A stretch of DNA of 64,000 nucleotides, taken from positions 372,001 to 436,000 of the forward strand of contig NZ_CP159981.1 in assembly GCF_041380365.1 (NCBI RefSeq), written 5' to 3'. The first letter of the stretch is position 1; each line of letters begins with the position of its first letter. Under the pieces are notes generated by a model. The model was given only the letters and a program-made list of their open reading frames with translations, had not been told where the DNA came from and did not search any database. This DNA is from Buchananella sp. 14KM1171. Its GTDB lineage: Bacteria > Actinomycetota > Actinomycetes > Actinomycetales > Actinomycetaceae. Both the position numbers and the translations under genes were made by a program. Shown in pieces: positions 9,941 to 56,110 of the stretch.

Positions 9941-11098
9941 TCACAGCTCGATGGGAGGCAGGCTTTCAATCAAATTGATCGAATCCCGAATTTTTGCAAC
10001 TCCGCTACGTGCTGGAGACAATGCGCGCCGAATGGCGGCCGAGGAGCGCTCCGCAGGCCTCATGGACTCCAAAAGGGAGTTCATTTGCTCTGCTACGTTT
10101 CCAAGGTCTGCTAGAGGTTGGATGCTTTCGTTGTAGGACTTAGCCGGCCGTTCATCGCCAGGCAGGTACTCGATTGCAATTTCTCTGACATTTCGCATCG
10201 AGGCGTGAACTCGCATTGTCGTAGCGAACATTTTCTCGCCTATATCCCCTATTTTATTGGCAGGCCCTTTGAGGTGCTCGGCAACTCCAAATGACCAAGT
10301 CTTAAGTGCAGCCGACGACAAAACTTGGGGATCGGGCTCAATGCTGGCGGCGTCGCCCAACTTCTTAATCGCGTCTGGCCCCTCAGCGATAATCGATGTT
10401 AGTTCTTTTAACTGCTCTTCCAAAGTTGCGAGTTCGTCGAATAATCCTGGGGCGTCGCTTGAGCTGGTGTACGTGGTTGAAGCGGGAGAGGGGGACTCGG
10501 ATTCGACAATTGGCGCTCCACCTTTCGGGCCTGGAGAGTTTGTGACCGCTAATGAGAGCTTGGTGACGGCTGCATTGTAGGATTTGTAAAACCGCTCGGC
10601 AATCATGCTCATCGTTTTTCGCCACTCGGCCGTCCCTGCTCCAGCCAGGATTGCGTCTTCGATTATTATCCACTGGCGATCGGCTGACTGGCGCGCAATG
10701 TCGTCATCTGAGTCTGGCCTGAACAGCTTGGGGGAGTTGAATAGGACGATTGGTAGAATTAGTTCGGGTACGTCACTTTCTGTTGTGGCACTCAGGTATA
10801 GGTTGTACTCTTTTCTGCAATTTTCGCTATTTAAGTAATTTGCACTCAGGAATGGGATGAATACGCTAGCGGCCACCACCTCCGCCTCAAGTCGACTTTT
10901 CCATATTTCACCCCACTCAATGCTCTCTTGATCGAGGAACGCTTTAATCCTTATGCCATATTTTGCTTTTGCGAAATAGGTAAGACTTTCTTTGAAATGC
11001 CTAATGAAGTTATTGTGATTTTCGTCCTCTCGGGCGTAGCTTAAGAACACGGCCACTTCAATCTCTTGTGGATGCTGAGTCTCACTGGTGGTGCACAT
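9941..11098 (-). CDS. TIR-domain protein with helical C-terminal region
   Basis: A 385-residue protein whose first ~150 residues form a TIR domain: VAVFLSYAREDE opens it, IKAFLDQESIEWGEIWKSRL follows, and NSENCRKEYNLYL carries the conserved Glu of NADase-type TIRs. Residues ~215-385 are mostly charged, predicted helical and possibly coiled-coil, without a second enzymatic motif. TIR domains in bacteria often degrade NAD+ as abortive-infection effectors; that activity here is inference. No TIR-partner gene (ThsA, Argonaute, CBASS cyclase) is adjacent. Composition is AT-rich relative to the chromosome, consistent with the island. The gene stands alone between IS remnants. Confidence 0.8.
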   Translation of the reverse strand: MCTTSETQHPQEIEVAVFLSYAREDENHNNFIRHFKESLTYFAKAKYGIRIKAFLDQESIEWGEIWKSRLEAEVVAASVFIPFLSANYLNSENCRKEYNLYLSATTESDVPELILPIVLFNSPKLFRPDSDDDIARQSADRQWIIIEDAILAGAGTAEWRKTMSMIAERFYKSYNAAVTKLSLAVTNSPGPKGGAPIVESESPSPASTTYTSSSDAPGLFDELATLEEQLKELTSIIAEGPDAIKKLGDAASIEPDPQVLSSAALKTWSFGVAEHLKGPANKIGDIGEKMFATTMRVHASMRNVREIAIEYLPGDERPAKSYNESIQPLADLGNVAEQMNSLLESMRPAERSSAAIRRALSPARSGVAKIRDSINLIESLPPIEL

Positions 11099-11302
11099 GA
11101 GTTTTCCTGTTACATTTGCGAGGGCTGTTAAGGGAGCTGAATGCTGGGCAAAGAGAAGGCTAGTGCCCTAAGTATTACAGGCTGGAAGTATGTGTGTGAG
11201 GCGCACAGGTGGGGCTGTTGATGGTTTGGGCGCGTTCTGGGTTTCATACCTCCAGCGTGGTGGTTGTCATTATGGTCTTGTATCGTACGGATGGCAGCGT
11301 GC

Positions 11303-11670
11303 CTAGATGCCGTTGACGGCATCTATTATCTGCAGTTGTGGCAGCACCTGGCAAGGTGCGGCCGGTCCAGAGTCGGAGGTCGCGCGCGATTCTTCTGTGA
11401 GGGGGTGTCCCCATGTGGTGTGTAAAGCAGCCAGGGGTGGTTTTGCGGCTGGTTGTGGGTCGTGGAGGGTGCCGGTGCGGATCATGGCGTGCAGGGGGAG
11501 GATGCGGCGGTGGGCCAGGGCGGTGAGTGCTTGGTTGTGGCGTTTTCCTTGGTCCCGTTTACGCTGGTAGTAGGCCTGAGAGACCGTATCAGAGCGCAGG
11601 GAAGCGAAGGCTGACAGGAACATGGCTCGTTTGGGTCTTTTCTTTCCGGCGTGGGAGACATGCGCTGCAC
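11303..11670 (-). pseudogene. C-terminal remnant of an IS110-family transposase
   Basis: The minus strand encodes AGKKRPKRAMFLSAFASLRSD, split here from YYQRKRDQGKRHNQALTALAHRR, the usual end of IS110/IS1111 DEDD transposases (Transposase_20 region). The N-terminal catalytic half is missing: the reading frame meets the left inverted repeat of the neighbouring IS3-type remnant at 11683, so that insertion probably cut the gene. I could not find the other half beyond 12985. Confidence 0.7.
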
Positions 11671-11682
11671 GTATTTATGAAC

Positions 11683-12985
11683 CTGAACCGTCCTGGGTTT
11701 GGTTTCGGTGGTCAGCCTGAAAGGATTGACCTATGCCGAAGCGTTTGGCCCCAGAGTTCAAGTCGCGTGCTGTTCGTCTTGTCAGCGACCCTCTGGCATC
11801 GGAGCAGACAGTCTCCCTCACCAGTGTTCTACGAGTGGAAGGGCATCAATCTCGGGGTGGGGTATGAGACGATGCGCCGCTAGTATCGCGATCCCAGCCT
11901 GAGACAGGATCTTGAACAAGCCCCATCAAGGAGTGCGAGGTGGCCCGCCTGCGGCGAGAAAACGCTCAGCTCCGCCAGGCCGGCGAGATCCGGAAGGCAG
12001 CCACAGGCTTTCACCAATAGAGCTCTGTCTCTCTGTACCCGAAATGATTGCTTTCATCGACGCGGGCCGGGCCAGGAGCGGGGGTTGAACGCATCTGCAA
12101 GGCTCTCACCGAACACCGCCAAGGCGCCTTCATCACCGGAGCGAGGGTATCGCAAGGCCAAGAACCCTACGCCCTGGCGGCGCTGCTTGCCAGATGCCGC
12201 TTTGATCCCCGTCATCGAGCGCATCCACCAAGAGAACACTTACGTGTACGGGTGGCTAGATGTGGCATGCCCTCAAACACGAAGGCTAGGACGTGGGGCG
12301 CGAACAATACCGAGCCTGGCTGTCGAGAGAGATGCCGGGCTCAAGGGCGTTGTACGTGGACGCAAGGCAGTACCAACCAGGAGCGCTCCTGGGACCGATA
12401 CACGCCCAGATCTGGATGAACCCCCGGCTTCGCACGCAGTGCCCCTAACCAGTTGTGGGTTGCCAACATTACTCACGTACGCGCAGCGGGTTCGTTTACA
12501 CCGCCTTCGTAACAGGTTGGGTTCAGCCGCAAGATCGCTGGCTGGGCAGTGAGTAACACACTCAACGCCCAGGCTCTACCCCTGCAAGCCCTGGAACAAG
12601 CTATCGCTACTGCCAAGGGCAGTGTCGAGGGATTGGTCCACCACAGCGATCACGGCAACCAGATACGTCTGTATCGGCCAATCCATGGGCGCCTGGTCGA
12701 AGCAGGAATTGATGCCCCTAACGGCACCGAAGGAGAATACTTGCGACAACGCACTGGCCAAACCCTAAACGGCTCATGCGCGAGCGAGTTGACCTAACTT
12801 CCCAGCACTGGGCCGGACTGACCGAAGTCGAATTAGCAGGCCCTATGCTGGGTGAACTGGTGGAACAACACCCGCCTGCACAGCCACCTGGGCTATGCCA
12901 CACCCCAAGAAACCCAAGACCGCTACTACCAACACCACACCCACCAAATGAACACCGCCTAGGAACCAAACCCAGGACGGTTCAG
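11683..12985 (+). mobile_element. IS3-family remnant with preserved inverted ends
   Basis: The left end begins CTGAACCGTCCTGGGTTTGG (11683) and the right end, read inward, is the same to within one base over about 23 bases (12985 back to 12962). Length is about 1.3 kb, usual for IS3. Both OrfA and OrfB remnants lie inside. No short target duplication is evident. The intact ends could still be mobilised in trans by a related transposase; that is inference. Confidence 0.8.
11733..12962 (+). pseudogene. Broken IS3 OrfA/OrfB transposase
   Basis: OrfA starts MPKRLAPEFKSRAVRLVSD at 11733 and soon loses frame; a leucine-zipper-like RLRRENAQLRQ piece follows near 11945. OrfB pieces include FIDAGRARSGVERICKAL (12055), LKGVVRGRK (12340), AGWAVSNTLNAQALPLQAL and GLVHHSDHG (12540-12650), and the terminal WWNNTRLHSHLGYATPQE (12858), ending with TAG at 12960-12962. 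Multiple frameshifts make it non-functional. Confidence 0.8.
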
Positions 12986-20793: not shown

Positions 20794-20808
20794 GATCAAC
20801 ATATTCTG

Positions 20809-20881
20809 TGGAGCTAAGGGGATTCGAACCCCTGACCTCCTCCATGCCATGGAGGCGCGCTACCAACTGCGCCATAGCCCC
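20809..20881 (-). tRNA. tRNA-Ala(GGC)
   Basis: Read on the minus strand, a 73-base cloverleaf: acceptor GGGGCTA paired with TAGCTCC, D arm with AGTTGGTAGCG, anticodon stem CCTCC/GGAGG enclosing ATGGCAT (anticodon GGC, codon GCC), and T arm with GGTTCGAATCC. The discriminator base is A and no CCA is encoded. tRNA genes are common integration points, but I see no integrase or attachment-site repeat beside this one. Confidence 0.95.
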
Positions 20882-21049
20882 GTTTGGAACAAGAGAAATA
20901 TTAGCGGGCGCCTCTCGAATGAAGCAAATCGAGACGGCGTTACCCGCCTCACACTTAGTCACATCGGTGTAATTCCAACGAAAAGTGCCCGTGTCACCTC
21001 GGCTCGCGCCGCTTCGTGCGTCTAAGCCGCCCCAACCGGCCCCCCAGCC

Positions 21050-21200
21050 CGACGTTCCGCCCCTCAACTCGACGTTCGGCGCCTCAACTCGACGTTCGGC
21101 ACCTCAACTCGACGTTTGCCTTCTCAACTCGACGTTGCCACCCCAGCTAACGTCTAGATTCACCACCAAACGTCGAGATGAAGCCACAAACGTCGAAATC
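21050..21200. repeat. 20-bp lattice element E1 (five forward, three reverse units)
   Basis: GACGTT occurs at 21051, 21071, 21091, 21111 and 21131, exactly 20 bases apart, mostly as CTCGACGTTYG followed by CTCAA. The complement AACGTC then occurs at 21149, 21169 and 21189, again 20 bases apart. The two series are mirror images about position 21142.5. The region is non-coding, between tRNA-Ala and rsfS. A 20-base period is about two helical turns, which would suit repeated protein binding on one DNA face. Confidence 0.85.
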
Positions 21201-21257: not shown

Positions 21258-21341
21258 GCCGAAACTTGTCAATGGCCGCCGAGACTTGTCCTTAGAGGTC
21301 CCGCTATGGACAAGTTTCGTGAGCTTTGGACAAGTCTCGGC
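21258..21341. repeat. 20-bp lattice element E2 (two forward, two reverse units)
   Basis: GCCGAAACTTGTC at 21258 and GCCGAGACTTGTC at 21278 are 20 bases apart. Their complements, GACAAGTTTCG at 21309 and GACAAGTCTCGGC at 21329, are also 20 bases apart. All four are symmetric about 21299.5. It has a different core but the same architecture as the neighbouring E1. Confidence 0.85.
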
Positions 21342-53326: not shown

Positions 53327-54991
53327 ATGCCCGCACCCAGCAACTGCAAGAACATGCTCCACGCCGCCCTGGCGCTCGTCGGCAACCTGGACGCAGACCA
53401 CGTACTGTCCACCTACCTCTCCTCCGCCTGCGAGCTCACCGAAGCCGGCTTCGCCGTCCTGGCCGTGCTGGACAACCACGGCGAGGCAATCCAGGTACTC
53501 CACCACGGCCTGTCCCCCGAACGCGCCGCCCAGATCGACGCCGCAGACCTCAGCGTCTCCCCCGAGCAGGAACTGCCCGAGTTCTACGCCATCCGCAACG
53601 ACGAAACGAGCGCGCAGAGCGTCGGACTGCCCGCCTGGTCCAGGCCGATTCGCAACCAGATGGTCGTGATCCTGCGCGTGCACGACAAGGTGATCGCCCG
53701 CCTGTTCCTGTGCAACAAGGAGGCAGACTTCGACGAGCAGGACGGCGTGCTCATGCGAGACCTCTCCAGCGCCACAGCGGTCGCGCTGGAGAACGCCCGC
53801 CAGTACGCCGCCTCCCTGAACCGCCACCGTTGGATCGAGGCCTCCCACACCATCTCCACCACTCTGCTGCAGGGCAGCGAGGAGGAGGAGGCCCTGGAGC
53901 TGATCGCCCACAAGGTGCGCGAGGCCGCGAAGGCCGACACCGCCTTGATCGTGCTGCCCGGCATCGGGGAGAACTGGGTGTGCGAGATCGCCGCCGGGCA
54001 CGGCACCGAGGAACTGATCGGCATCGTGTTCCCGCCCAACGGCCGGGCGGTGACCGCACTGCGGGCCGGCGCCGGCATGGTGGTCGATTCACTGGCGCGC
54101 GCCCGCACCCTGCGCGTGCCCCAGCTGGGCAAGTTCGGCCCAGCCCTGTACGCGCCGCTGATGGCGCGCGGCAAGGGCACCGGCGTGCTGATCCTGTTGC
54201 GCGACCGGGGCCGCGAGGAGTTCGCCCGCGAGGACCTGGAGATGGCCGAGTCCTTCGCCGCGCAGGCCGCCCTCGCCCTCGAGATCGCCGCCTCCCGCCA
54301 CAACGAGGACCGCGCGACCCTGCTGGACGAGCGCGCCCGCATCGGCCGCGACCTGCACGATCTGGCCATTCAGCAGCTCTTTGCCTCTGGTATGCAGCTG
54401 GAGGTGGCCAAGTCCCGCGTGGCCGCCGGCGAGCGCGACGACGCCGCCCTGGTGAAGATTTTGGACGACGTTCTGTCCAGCGTCGACGATTCCGTGCGCC
54501 AGATTCGCGCCATCGTGCGCTCCCTGAAGGAGCCCGACGAGAATCTTGACCTGGCCGAGCGGCTGCGCCGCGAGGCCTCCCTAGCGCGCACCGCTCTGGG
54601 CTTCGCGCCCTCGCTGGTGGTCTGCCTGGACGGCGTTTCGCTGGCCGAGGCCGTGGACCCGGGGCTAGCGGCCACGCAGCTTTCCGGCCGCGTGGACCAG
54701 GATCTGGCCGACGACGTGGTGGCCGTGGTGCGCGAGGGCATGAGCAACGCCGCGCGCCACGCCCACTGTTCCTCCCTGCAGGTGCGCGTGGACGTGGCGG
54801 GCCAGGCGCCGCGCGGGCGCGTCATGGTCTCCGTGATCGACGACGGCGTGGGCGTGCCCCAGGAGCGCACACGCAACTCCGGCCTGGAGAACCTGGCGGC
54901 GCGCGCCCGGCGGCACCGGGGCAGCTTCACCCTGGGGCGCACCGAGACCGGCACCGGCACGCACCTGGCGTGGAGCGCGCCCCTCACCTAG
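53327..54991 (+). CDS. GAF-domain sensor histidine kinase, DevS/DosS-like
   Basis: A 554-residue soluble kinase with two GAF-type sensor domains (about 15-160 and 180-330), a HisKA_3 dimerisation region with the phospho-accepting His in ARIGRDLHDLAIQQLFASGM near 345, and an HATPase domain (VREGMSNAARHAHCSSLQV, VIDDGVGVP, GLENLAARARRHRG). The order GAF-GAF-HisKA_3-HATPase is that of mycobacterial DevS/DosS/DosT, whose first GAF binds haem and senses O2/NO/CO. Haem binding here is not shown by the sequence. It is probably the last gene of the cyd operon and faces a convergent NarL/DevR-type regulator, its likely partner. Confidence 0.9.
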   Translation: MPAPSNCKNMLHAALALVGNLDADHVLSTYLSSACELTEAGFAVLAVLDNHGEAIQVLHHGLSPERAAQIDAADLSVSPEQELPEFYAIRNDETSAQSVGLPAWSRPIRNQMVVILRVHDKVIARLFLCNKEADFDEQDGVLMRDLSSATAVALENARQYAASLNRHRWIEASHTISTTLLQGSEEEEALELIAHKVREAAKADTALIVLPGIGENWVCEIAAGHGTEELIGIVFPPNGRAVTALRAGAGMVVDSLARARTLRVPQLGKFGPALYAPLMARGKGTGVLILLRDRGREEFAREDLEMAESFAAQAALALEIAASRHNEDRATLLDERARIGRDLHDLAIQQLFASGMQLEVAKSRVAAGERDDAALVKILDDVLSSVDDSVRQIRAIVRSLKEPDENLDLAERLRREASLARTALGFAPSLVVCLDGVSLAEAVDPGLAATQLSGRVDQDLADDVVAVVREGMSNAARHAHCSSLQVRVDVAGQAPRGRVMVSVIDDGVGVPQERTRNSGLENLAARARRHRGSFTLGRTETGTGTHLAWSAPLT

Positions 54992-55045: not shown

Positions 55046-55221
55046 GTGCGCAAACGGTTGCAGGCTTAGTAAACCTTTTGCGCTTTTGGTGCACCGATTG
55101 AGGTTTTGGTGCACCGATTGCGTGGTTACCCGACCGGGTAAGCCCACGAGAGGTTCACTAAGCCCACGACTGGTGCAGCAACCCTACGAGAGGTGCACTA
55201 TCCCCTCGATCGTTTGCGCAC
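55046..55221. repeat. 20-bp lattice element E3, exactly dyad-symmetric
   Basis: Outer ends GTGCGCAAACG (55046) and CGTTTGCGCAC (55211) are perfect inverted repeats. Inside, GGTGCACC-like cores start at 55068, 55088, 55108, 55152, 55172 and 55192, each series 20 bases apart. The centre is the palindrome TTACCCG-AC-CGGGTAA (55126-55141). Everything is symmetric about 55133.5. The 17-base TTTTGGTGCACCGATTG is repeated exactly at 55084 and 55104. Confidence 0.85.
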
Positions 55222-55378
55222 AAGTCACCCCTGCCGTGGCTCGCACCCGTTCCTCCAGCTCCCAGTCGCGCTCAGGGCGGAGGTCCTGCTTATCGAAGTA
55301 GACAAGGTCCACGTCGCTGGAGAAATCAAGGCAAGGAGAAGCCACACCAGCGAGCCGGGGCGTTAGGTGGTCCCAAAG
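55184..55378 (-). pseudogene. Fragment of a nucleotidyltransferase-family gene (NTP_transf_6/DUF925-like)
   Basis: About 50 recognisable residues on the minus strand: LLWDHLTPRLAG, then SSDVDLVYFDKQDLRPERDW and ELEERVRA. They match the WDH...DVDVVYFD core of the NTP_transf_6 (DUF925) family. The 5' side runs into the hairpin at 55383-55415 and the 3' side into element E3 at 55221, so both ends are gone. No start or complete domain remains. Confidence 0.55.
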
Positions 55379-55382
55379 AAGT

Positions 55383-55415
55383 GGTGTCCCTCCTGCTACC
55401 TGCAGGAGGGACACC
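55383..55415 (-). terminator. Terminator of the response regulator gene
   Basis: GGTGTCCCTCCTGC and its exact complement around a 5-base loop, about 40 bases past the regulator stop on the minus strand. Confidence 0.8.
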
Positions 55416-55453
55416 CCCATTGCCTTCGCGCGGTCCAGTCTTGCCGGACCCGC

Positions 55454-56110
55454 TCAGCTCTGGTTGCGCCAGCCCGCGGCCCGCTGCCCAGCCACCCACG
55501 CGGCCACCTGGGTGCGCCGCTGCAGGCCCATCTTGGACAGCAGGGAGGTGATGTGGTTCTTCACGGTCTTCTCAGCCACGCCCAGGCGCTCACCGATCTC
55601 TCGGTTGGAAAGACCGTCCGCGATCAGGTCCAGCACCTTGCGCTCGGAGGGCGTCAGGTCCGCGGTCGGGTCGTCGTGGTCGGCCCTGCGACGCGTGATG
55701 GTGCGCTCGTCCAGCAGCGTGCGGCCACCGGCCACCGCCTTGACCACGTCCGCGATTTCCGCGCCACGCACGGTCTTGAGCAGATAAGCGCGCGCGCCGG
55801 CAGCCAGGGACTCCGCCAGGGCGTCGTCGTCATCGAAGGAGGTCAGCACGATCGGCTTAACCTCAGGGTCGATCTCCCGCAAGGACTTCATCACGTCAAT
55901 GCCCGTGCCGTCGGGCAGCTGCAGGTCTACCAACACCACGTCCGGGCGCACCAGGTCCGCGCGGCGCACGGCCTCCGCCAAGGAGCCGGCCTCTGCCACC
56001 ACTGTCAGGCCGTCGGCCCGATCTACGATCTCAGCAATGCCGCGACGCACGATCTCGTGGTCGTCAACGATCATTACGCGGATGTCCCCGCCGGTCTTGG
56101 TCTCAGGCAT
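55454..56110 (-). CDS. NarL/DevR-family response regulator
   Basis: A 218-residue regulator. The receiver domain has IVDDHEIVRRG, the phospho-acceptor Asp in VVLVDLQLPDG near 62, VLTSFDDDD and AYLLKTVRGAE with the conserved Lys near 110. The LuxR-type helix-turn-helix reads LTPSERKVLDLIADGLSNRE and VAEKTVKNHITSLLSKMGL, then RRTQVAAWVAG. The recognition-helix string AEKTVKN is the same as in mycobacterial DosR, where its Lys and Asn residues contact the GGG of the DosR box. It faces the DevS-like kinase gene convergently. Likely target: the dyad upstream of cydA. Confidence 0.9.
   Translation of the reverse strand: MPETKTGGDIRVMIVDDHEIVRRGIAEIVDRADGLTVVAEAGSLAEAVRRADLVRPDVVLVDLQLPDGTGIDVMKSLREIDPEVKPIVLTSFDDDDALAESLAAGARAYLLKTVRGAEIADVVKAVAGGRTLLDERTITRRRADHDDPTADLTPSERKVLDLIADGLSNREIGERLGVAEKTVKNHITSLLSKMGLQRRTQVAAWVAGQRAAGWRNQS

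Follow-up and report, generated by a model that had tools for sequence, protein, structure and literature searches.

Geometry of the Block and Its Surroundings

In the window (the whole stretch of 64,000 nucleotides analysed), a 176-bp block lies between the genes for a histidine kinase (53327–54991, + strand), whose stop is only 54 bp away, and for a response regulator (55454–56110, − strand). Its parts are listed in Table 1 together with the other features of the window. The initial annotation had described inverted ends of 11 bases, six cores on 20-bp steps, and a central palindrome, and all three are present. The ends, GTGCGCAAACG (55046–55056) and CGTTTGCGCAC (55211–55221), are exact inverses of each other, the cores lie at 55068, 55088, and 55108 on the left side and at 55152, 55172, and 55192 on the right one, and 14 of the 16 bases of the palindrome at 55126–55141 equal their own reverse complement when compared by eye. 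The core at 55068, AGTAAACC, appears by eye as a weak version of GGTGCACC.

Table 1. Features of the 176-bp block and related features of the window.
Feature	Coordinates	Strand	Remarks
Left end unit GTGCGCAAACGGTTGCAGGC	55046–55065	+	Conserved end begins 5'-TG at 55047
Left arm, three 20-bp units (55066, 55086, 55106)	55066–55125	+	
Centre TTACCCGACCGGGTAA, 16 bp	55126–55141	.	
Right arm, three inverted 20-bp units (55142, 55162, 55182)	55142–55201	-	
Right end unit CCCCTCGATCGTTTGCGCAC	55202–55221	-	
NTP_transf_6-like stretch, 34 residues, outside the block	55235–55336	-	23.3 bits, Pfam cut-off 25
Family D inverted array, 20-bp pitch	21037–21199	.	About five units CGGCCCCTCAACTCGACGTT (21037–21136) and AACGTCGAGAT-like inverted cores at 21149, 21169, 21189
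Family E inverted array	21260–21339	.	CGARACTTGTC at 21260, 21280; inverted ACAAGTYTCG at 21310, 21330

The dyad identity of the block over its 176 bp is 0.648, compared to 0.263 (sd 0.046, maximum 0.455) in 5000 doublet-preserving shuffles, and its lag-20 identity within the arms is 0.588, compared to 0.249 (sd 0.037, maximum 0.375) in the same shuffles. When both values are added, no other 176-bp stretch of the window scores as high; the second best, at 21045, is another array. The ends, the 20-bp lattice, and the dyad are thus real and far beyond what shuffles give, and the strongest proof that the block is no accident comes from the homologous places found elsewhere in the genome (see below).

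The initial annotation had also placed the right end at the point where an NTP_transf_6-like reading frame stops resembling its family, and had offered an insertion as an inference. The ORF at 55184–55420 (− strand) does match that family beside the block, below the Pfam cut-off and over 34 residues only (E 6.3e-5), but the match ends 13 bp short of the block. An insertion into this gene is unsupported, given that the fragment spans just profile positions 30–63 of 159, that its N-terminal side runs into a terminator-like hairpin (55383–55415), and that the kinase stop is so close; moreover, none of the three genomes of the genus searched gave an NTP_transf_6 match over the cut-off. In the related genome G002, some 50 bp separate the alignment of the kinase from that of the regulator, too little for the element to fit, and in the related genome G001 both genes are found on different contigs, each continuing into other DNA.

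A Dispersed Family with Two Subfamilies

The block is not unique, as it is one of dozens of copies of a dispersed spacer element. A blastn search of the block against its own genome (one contig of 2,364,007 bases) yielded 44 matches in some 30 distinct places, mostly of 174–176 bp and, in the main ones and the block itself aside, 74–89% identical. The end motif TGCGCAANCGNYTGNG matched this genome 73 times, compared to none for the reversed motif; when one mismatch was allowed, the matches were 138 versus 20 for the control in the own genome, 24 versus 19 in G001, and 14 versus 16 in G002. Among the places flagged by these sequence and end-motif matches, 75 candidate end pairs were considered, from which 48 non-overlapping ones with a dyad above 0.5 were kept (copy 1187650 being the sole exception to this threshold), a number that is a lower bound. 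Hence, at least 48 complete copies are present in the genome, 27 of them, including that of the window, belonging to a subfamily A, and 21 to a subfamily C of the same plan built on another unit, roughly TTTGTTGCACCTCTTGAGCC. The mean identity between A and C is 0.584 (about 58%), and copies 561044 and 895939 are distant members of C. Broken or partial copies outside these 48 were found at 179027, 768682, 841946/843463, 874535 (apparently one left unit and no right unit, by eye), 1547230, 1744603/1746067, and 2259254, the last of which was still used as a neighbour in the count of A–C order given below.

The end-to-end length is 174 bp in 38 of the 48 copies, 154 bp in three, 194 bp in four, and 155, 169, and 175 bp once each, so 45 of them measure 174 bp plus or minus whole 20-bp units and three are off register. 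Alignments were restricted to copies of exactly 174 bp (20 A and 18 C), which MAFFT aligned without gaps over 174 columns, apart and combined; this gap-free status rests on MAFFT and on the equal lengths, as a plain pairwise aligner does introduce gaps between copies of the same length (315 in the A pairs taken together and 490 in the C pairs). By manual mapping, the columns that never vary among the 38 copies recur at unit positions 1–2, 8, and 10 of either arm; in the terminal units, in addition to TGCGCA, the bases A and C are preserved at positions 8 and 10, respectively, with the register unchanged. TGCGCAA.C at the end is invariant across the 38 copies. The element is bounded by 5'-TG...CA-3' (CG instead of CA in one copy of the 38), inside which sites of about 20 bp are repeated subterminally. 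With its 48 copies, this is a short non-coding element with terminal inverted repeats, as MITEs are, and it is GC-poorer than its surroundings (0.57 vs. 0.67).

Genomic Placement and Distribution

According to our own crude gene caller, 47 of the 48 copies lie outside called genes, copy 1496100 overlapping an ORF. The same caller placed 26 of the 43 copies with both neighbours called between tandem genes, 11 between divergent ones, and six between convergent ones. No strand bias was detected, neither with respect to tandem genes (14 copies on the same strand, 12 on the opposite one) nor to replication (27 along, 21 against, for an origin assumed at the IstB_IS21-like match, which was taken as DnaA). 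The subfamilies show a preferred order: in 8 out of 11 neighbouring A–C pairs, the two copies share a strand and C is the upstream one.

Two further observations concern the landscape of the copies. A 400-kb stretch of the genome, from 27.7 to 427 kb, contains none of the 48 A/C copies, the next longest gap being of 155 kb. In addition, the DNA to the right of many A copies (for instance at L018, L019, L021, and L024) contains, often within 200 bp, a member of a third repeat family, B, which measures about 107 bp and has a long palindrome at its centre (GGGGTACAT...ATGTACCCC).

A profile built on the 38 copies, searched with strict filters and with no more than 22 candidates scored per genome, gave matches with an E value of 0.001 or better in three of 121 genomes of the family: the own genome, G001 (one place), and, marginally, G002, whose weak match (E 7.5e-4) was treated as chance. 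The initial annotation had proposed the loss of the 20-bp register in relatives as evidence against its view of the block; the sole copy recognised in G001, of 134 bp with one left and three right units, stays in register. A search for the two-ended pattern (total length 154–184) retrieved 55 stretches from 84,980 species and four from IMG/VR viral contigs, in a collection that may omit the own and very near genomes, and all 59 looked chance-like after dyad and lag-20 scoring. The best of them, L105, the sole one read, is AT-rich and without a clear lattice.

Arrays of the Same Design Built on Other Cores

The window holds two more inverted arrays of 20-bp pitch, D and E (Table 1), with cores CAACTCGACGTT and CGARACTTGTCC, respectively, both unrelated to the A/C core. 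They sit between the tRNA-Ala gene (20808–20881) and the RsfS gene. Another core, CCTAGACCTTG (family F), is also present in the genome.

Arrays were then searched by spacing only, for lags from 11 to 60: a direct pair of 9-mers was required together with an inverted pair of equal lag within 190 bp. Arrays out of reach of sequence similarity were revealed in this way. Evenly sampled over 400 kb, the own genome gave 16 places at lag 20, seven at lag 40, one at lag 60, and, for all the remaining lags, a single one (lag 16). The 16 places at lag 20 were assigned by eye to D (11), E (2), A (1), and C (2), and two of them are the D and E arrays of the window. In 317 kb of G001, four places appeared at lag 20, with cores like GTTGGGCGACAAG, along with single ones at 12, 21, 40, 42, and 51, and 400 kb of G002 gave five places at lag 19 and two at 38, with core CACCATCATGTCCTTAA, single ones at 15 and 33, and none at 20. 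By comparison, 452 kb of unrelated control DNA showed one place at lag 12 and none at lag 20, and no places were found in a smaller set of relatives (75 kb). When the scan was widened to 20 other genomes of the family (800 kb), G065, from another genus, presented three places at lag 19 and two at 38, with core GGATAGGTTA, which by eye correspond to three plus three sites in two arrays. G061 presented one place at lag 22; beyond these, lags 15, 18, 36, and 51 had one place each, and lag 33 had two. The pitch is 20 bp in two species and 19 bp in two others, often with three sites per arm. The inverted arrays of 19-bp pitch are located at L235, L236, L237, L242, and L254 (G002) and at L268 (G065).

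A skeleton shared by the A/C units with those of D, E, F, and G was rejected because only one of 11 runs of column permutation fell below 0.05 (0.015). Among the D- to H-type arrays with both neighbours called, 8 of 14 lie between convergent genes, one neighbour being 3.3 kb away, and 17 of the 20 genes tested beside such arrays have Pfam matches, to ordinary, unrelated families. Whole inverted D arrays of about 190 bp have seemingly multiplied in tandem at L140 (1590–2430) and L221 (6500–7100). In G001, a G-type array (L144, 10285–10410) is found about 300 bp upstream of a gene for a DUF4143/AAA_14 ATPase (10715–12031); as a general partner of the arrays this ATPase was discarded, no homologue being present in the other DNA compared.

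Constraint after Duplication and Signs of Mobility

In ten pairs of duplicated blocks that include flanking DNA, the elements differ at 73 of 1735 positions and the flanks at 211 of 2427, the gaps being three and 51, respectively. The five pairs that share no copy gave 34 substitutions in 865 positions and one gap for the element, versus 109 in 986 and 25 gaps for the flank. The rate of the flank is above that of the element in eight of the ten pairs, which overlap in their copies, and the element changed slightly more than the flank in the other two (3567 with 27493 and 3567 with 2259655). Gene conversion could mimic such a lower change in the element.

Regarding its boundaries, 12 copy pairs reach 88% identity or more, and in 5 of them both ends of the alignment fall within 10 bp of the element; several close pairs have 100–250 bp of flank in common. 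This shared flank and the recurrent C-then-A order indicate that many copies do not derive from independent insertions of the element alone. No target-site duplication stood out in the 48 copies for boundary shifts of −2 to 4 and k of 2 to 9; only k = 3 at shift 0 was flagged, in three of the 48 copies compared to a shuffled mean of 0.84 and a maximum of 3. Neither was a longer element with matching ends detected among the traced ends, in a search that would miss diverged ones. The candidates for an autonomous partner at 841946–843578 and 1744603–1746067 were rejected, as they are A and C elements split by IS3-like insertions. These insertions, with IS3-like transposase ORFs recognised by eye from their translation, span 841997–843462 and about 1744620–1745890.

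Enzymes that could act on the element were searched for in the genomes of the genus. The Pfam model Y1_Tnp (RAYT) matched none of the three, the same search being positive in 5 of 14 control genomes. For an IS21 helper, only partial IstB_IS21 matches were obtained, the best one (profile 95–195) equally strong in all three genomes, and these are probably other AAA+ proteins. Mu-transpos_C gave no match, and its control was likewise without a match anywhere. Finally, the element is absent from all five G001 spacers with both sides on one of the contigs examined; the sequences of these spacers have diverged too far for an exact empty site to be defined, and those of the own genome contain extra DNA beyond the element.

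The Arms as Double-Stranded Sites or as a Hairpin

The initial annotation had offered an operator array, a non-autonomous mobile element, and a structured RNA as possible natures of the block. The first two both fit, whereas the third is unsupported, as no compensatory excess over shuffles was detected. If the arms folded into a structured RNA or a single-stranded DNA hairpin, this would account for their predicted folds, which are very stable on both strands (z of −8.4 and −7.5), as is the case for any inverted repeat. The terminal units, which share the special sequence, also match well across arms (0.81 and 0.85). Nevertheless, changes on both sides of the arm pairing numbered 15 in A and 17 in C, no more than the shuffled means of 16.3 and 21.2, and the paired cells amounted to 75.1% in A and 70.7% in C, versus 76.0% and 71.2% in shuffles. 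Structures slid by one to three columns gave fewer both-sided changes (6–10 in A, 7–15 in C) than the actual ones, an excess expected because the structure was read off the sequences themselves. The covariation terms were −0.45 and −1.12 kcal/mol, the inner units are not consistently more complementary to their cognate than to other units (only L2–R2 of C tops its row), there is no strand bias, and nothing in the window besides one tRNA scored over the Rfam gathering threshold. A hairpin is highly improbable in our opinion.

On the other hand, when the information profiles along the unit are compared among the four arms (left and right, A and C), they correlate in register 0 (r 0.38–0.77), which is the best of the 20 registers in five of six profile comparisons and the third in that of A-left with C-left. 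Since conservation falls on the same positions of the unit in either arm and in both subfamilies, without covariation between arms beyond shuffles, the units are probably double-stranded sites read by a protein instead of a hairpin RNA.

Discussion

The element described here is multi-copy and mostly intergenic, with a strict lattice, a dyad, and, for some close pairs, sharp boundaries; its two arms conserve the same positions of the unit, and overall it has changed less than the flanks duplicated with it. Our tentative reading, held with slightly less than even confidence, is that the block is a dispersed non-autonomous DNA element made solely of oriented 20-bp candidate protein sites, in which four sites (one terminal and three subterminal) face four more across a 16-bp centre. 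A sequence-specific protein would coat this lattice and draw the two arms together, and its action on them might have multiplied the element; transposases of the IS21, Mu, and Tn7 types bind, in a similar way, arrays of sites of some 20 bp at 5'-TG...CA-3' ends. Several site sequences (A/C, D, E, and F, and others in the relatives) share a pitch of 19–20 bp, and for this reason we propose that they are read by proteins of one family, diversified but with a single footprint. Such a layout, repeated with unrelated sites nearby and in sister species, hints at a DNA-binding machine.

The main rival is a resident architectural protein, for which the element would be a host-maintained chromosome-organising or regulatory array, coated or bridged by this protein so as to insulate, loop, or silence the DNA between genes, with copies spreading by duplication and conversion instead of transposition. 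The lower number of substitutions and indels compared to the co-duplicated flanks, the lack of target duplications, the recurrent C-then-A order, and the convergent genes around 8 of the 14 D- to H-type arrays (with a crude gene caller) are all in its favour. A dead transposon relic would not be expected to remain constrained once duplicated, though the constraint is uneven here, and this unevenness, together with the convergent placement, made us move some weight, slightly, from the mobile element to the architectural array. Against the latter are the five matching spacers of the congener that lack the element, the absence of matches in 118 of the 121 family genomes within the limits of that search, the orientation of the A/C copies, which follows neither tandem genes nor replication, and the functionally unrelated genes beside the D- to H-type arrays. 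We regard it as rather unlikely.

Two other origins seem far less probable. Neutral slippage of tandem repeats followed by a chance inversion, with neither function nor mobility, would agree with the change in unit number by whole units; it fits poorly with a pitch of 20 in several families of unrelated cores, with the absence of lag 20 from the 452 kb of unrelated DNA, with the conserved unit positions, and with terminal units distinct from the inner ones, and we give it very little credit. REP sequences are extragenic, of high copy number, and with a dyad, and a REPIN is a head-to-head REP pair. Our element resembles them in these three features, and a REPIN-type repeat mobilised by a RAYT (Y1) transposase would also be small, mostly intergenic, and free of target duplications. 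However, no RAYT gene was found in the three genomes of the genus by a search that works in control genomes, and eight sites on a fixed pitch are unlike a head-to-head pair, making this the least credible of the explanations considered.

For the non-autonomous mobile element, the closest likeness is with the ends of IS21, Mu, and Tn7. The terminal inverted repeats of IS21 are reported to consist of two multiple repeats with a terminal CA, and its complex has been compared with those of Tn7 and Mu (PMC10122671). Our element resembles these ends in the terminal 5'-TG...CA-3', in a terminal site of special sequence, and in subterminal sites at a fixed pitch, as transposase sites are also repeated there, more than one at each end. 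In contrast, here there are four sites per arm, the arms are joined around 16 bp with no gene, and neither a target duplication nor a matching transposase was found. Given these last two absences, the resemblance is one in the way of working, by analogy, and not of membership.

Repeats with modules (BOX) or with inverted ends (RUP, ERIC) are already known (PMC3049150, PMC10969869). As in the RUP and ERIC MITEs described there, ours is short, non-coding, mostly intergenic, GC-poor, and clustered with repeats, with terminal inverted repeats (PMC3049150, PMC10969869), but neither a target duplication nor, among the ends traced, an autonomous partner was found for it, and its whole length is a lattice of sites. 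Similarly, pneumococcal BOX elements are interspersed and have variable internal modules between fixed end modules (PMC3049150), although these are tandem modules between unlike ends; the boxA-boxB(n)-boxC order is absent here, where inverted arrays with like ends are laid out around a centre.

In the open-licence literature searched, no account or named element was found that corresponds to inverted arrays of sites at constant pitch with exchangeable cores. It is possible, though we would consider it doubtful, that the arrays of the high-GC family Actinomycetaceae form a class of elements new to that literature, one whose geometry stays constant while the sequence recognised changes from one array family or species to another. 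A fixed geometry with exchangeable site sequences is unusual, as interspersed repeats are normally defined by their sequence and not by their spacing. If the class is true, a diversified family of array-binding proteins would be moving DNA or organising chromosomes through these arrays. If a protein family does read them, its members could be found by matching the cores of the arrays to paralogues, and this would expose a new route for the spread of gene-less DNA or a new organisation of spacer DNA.
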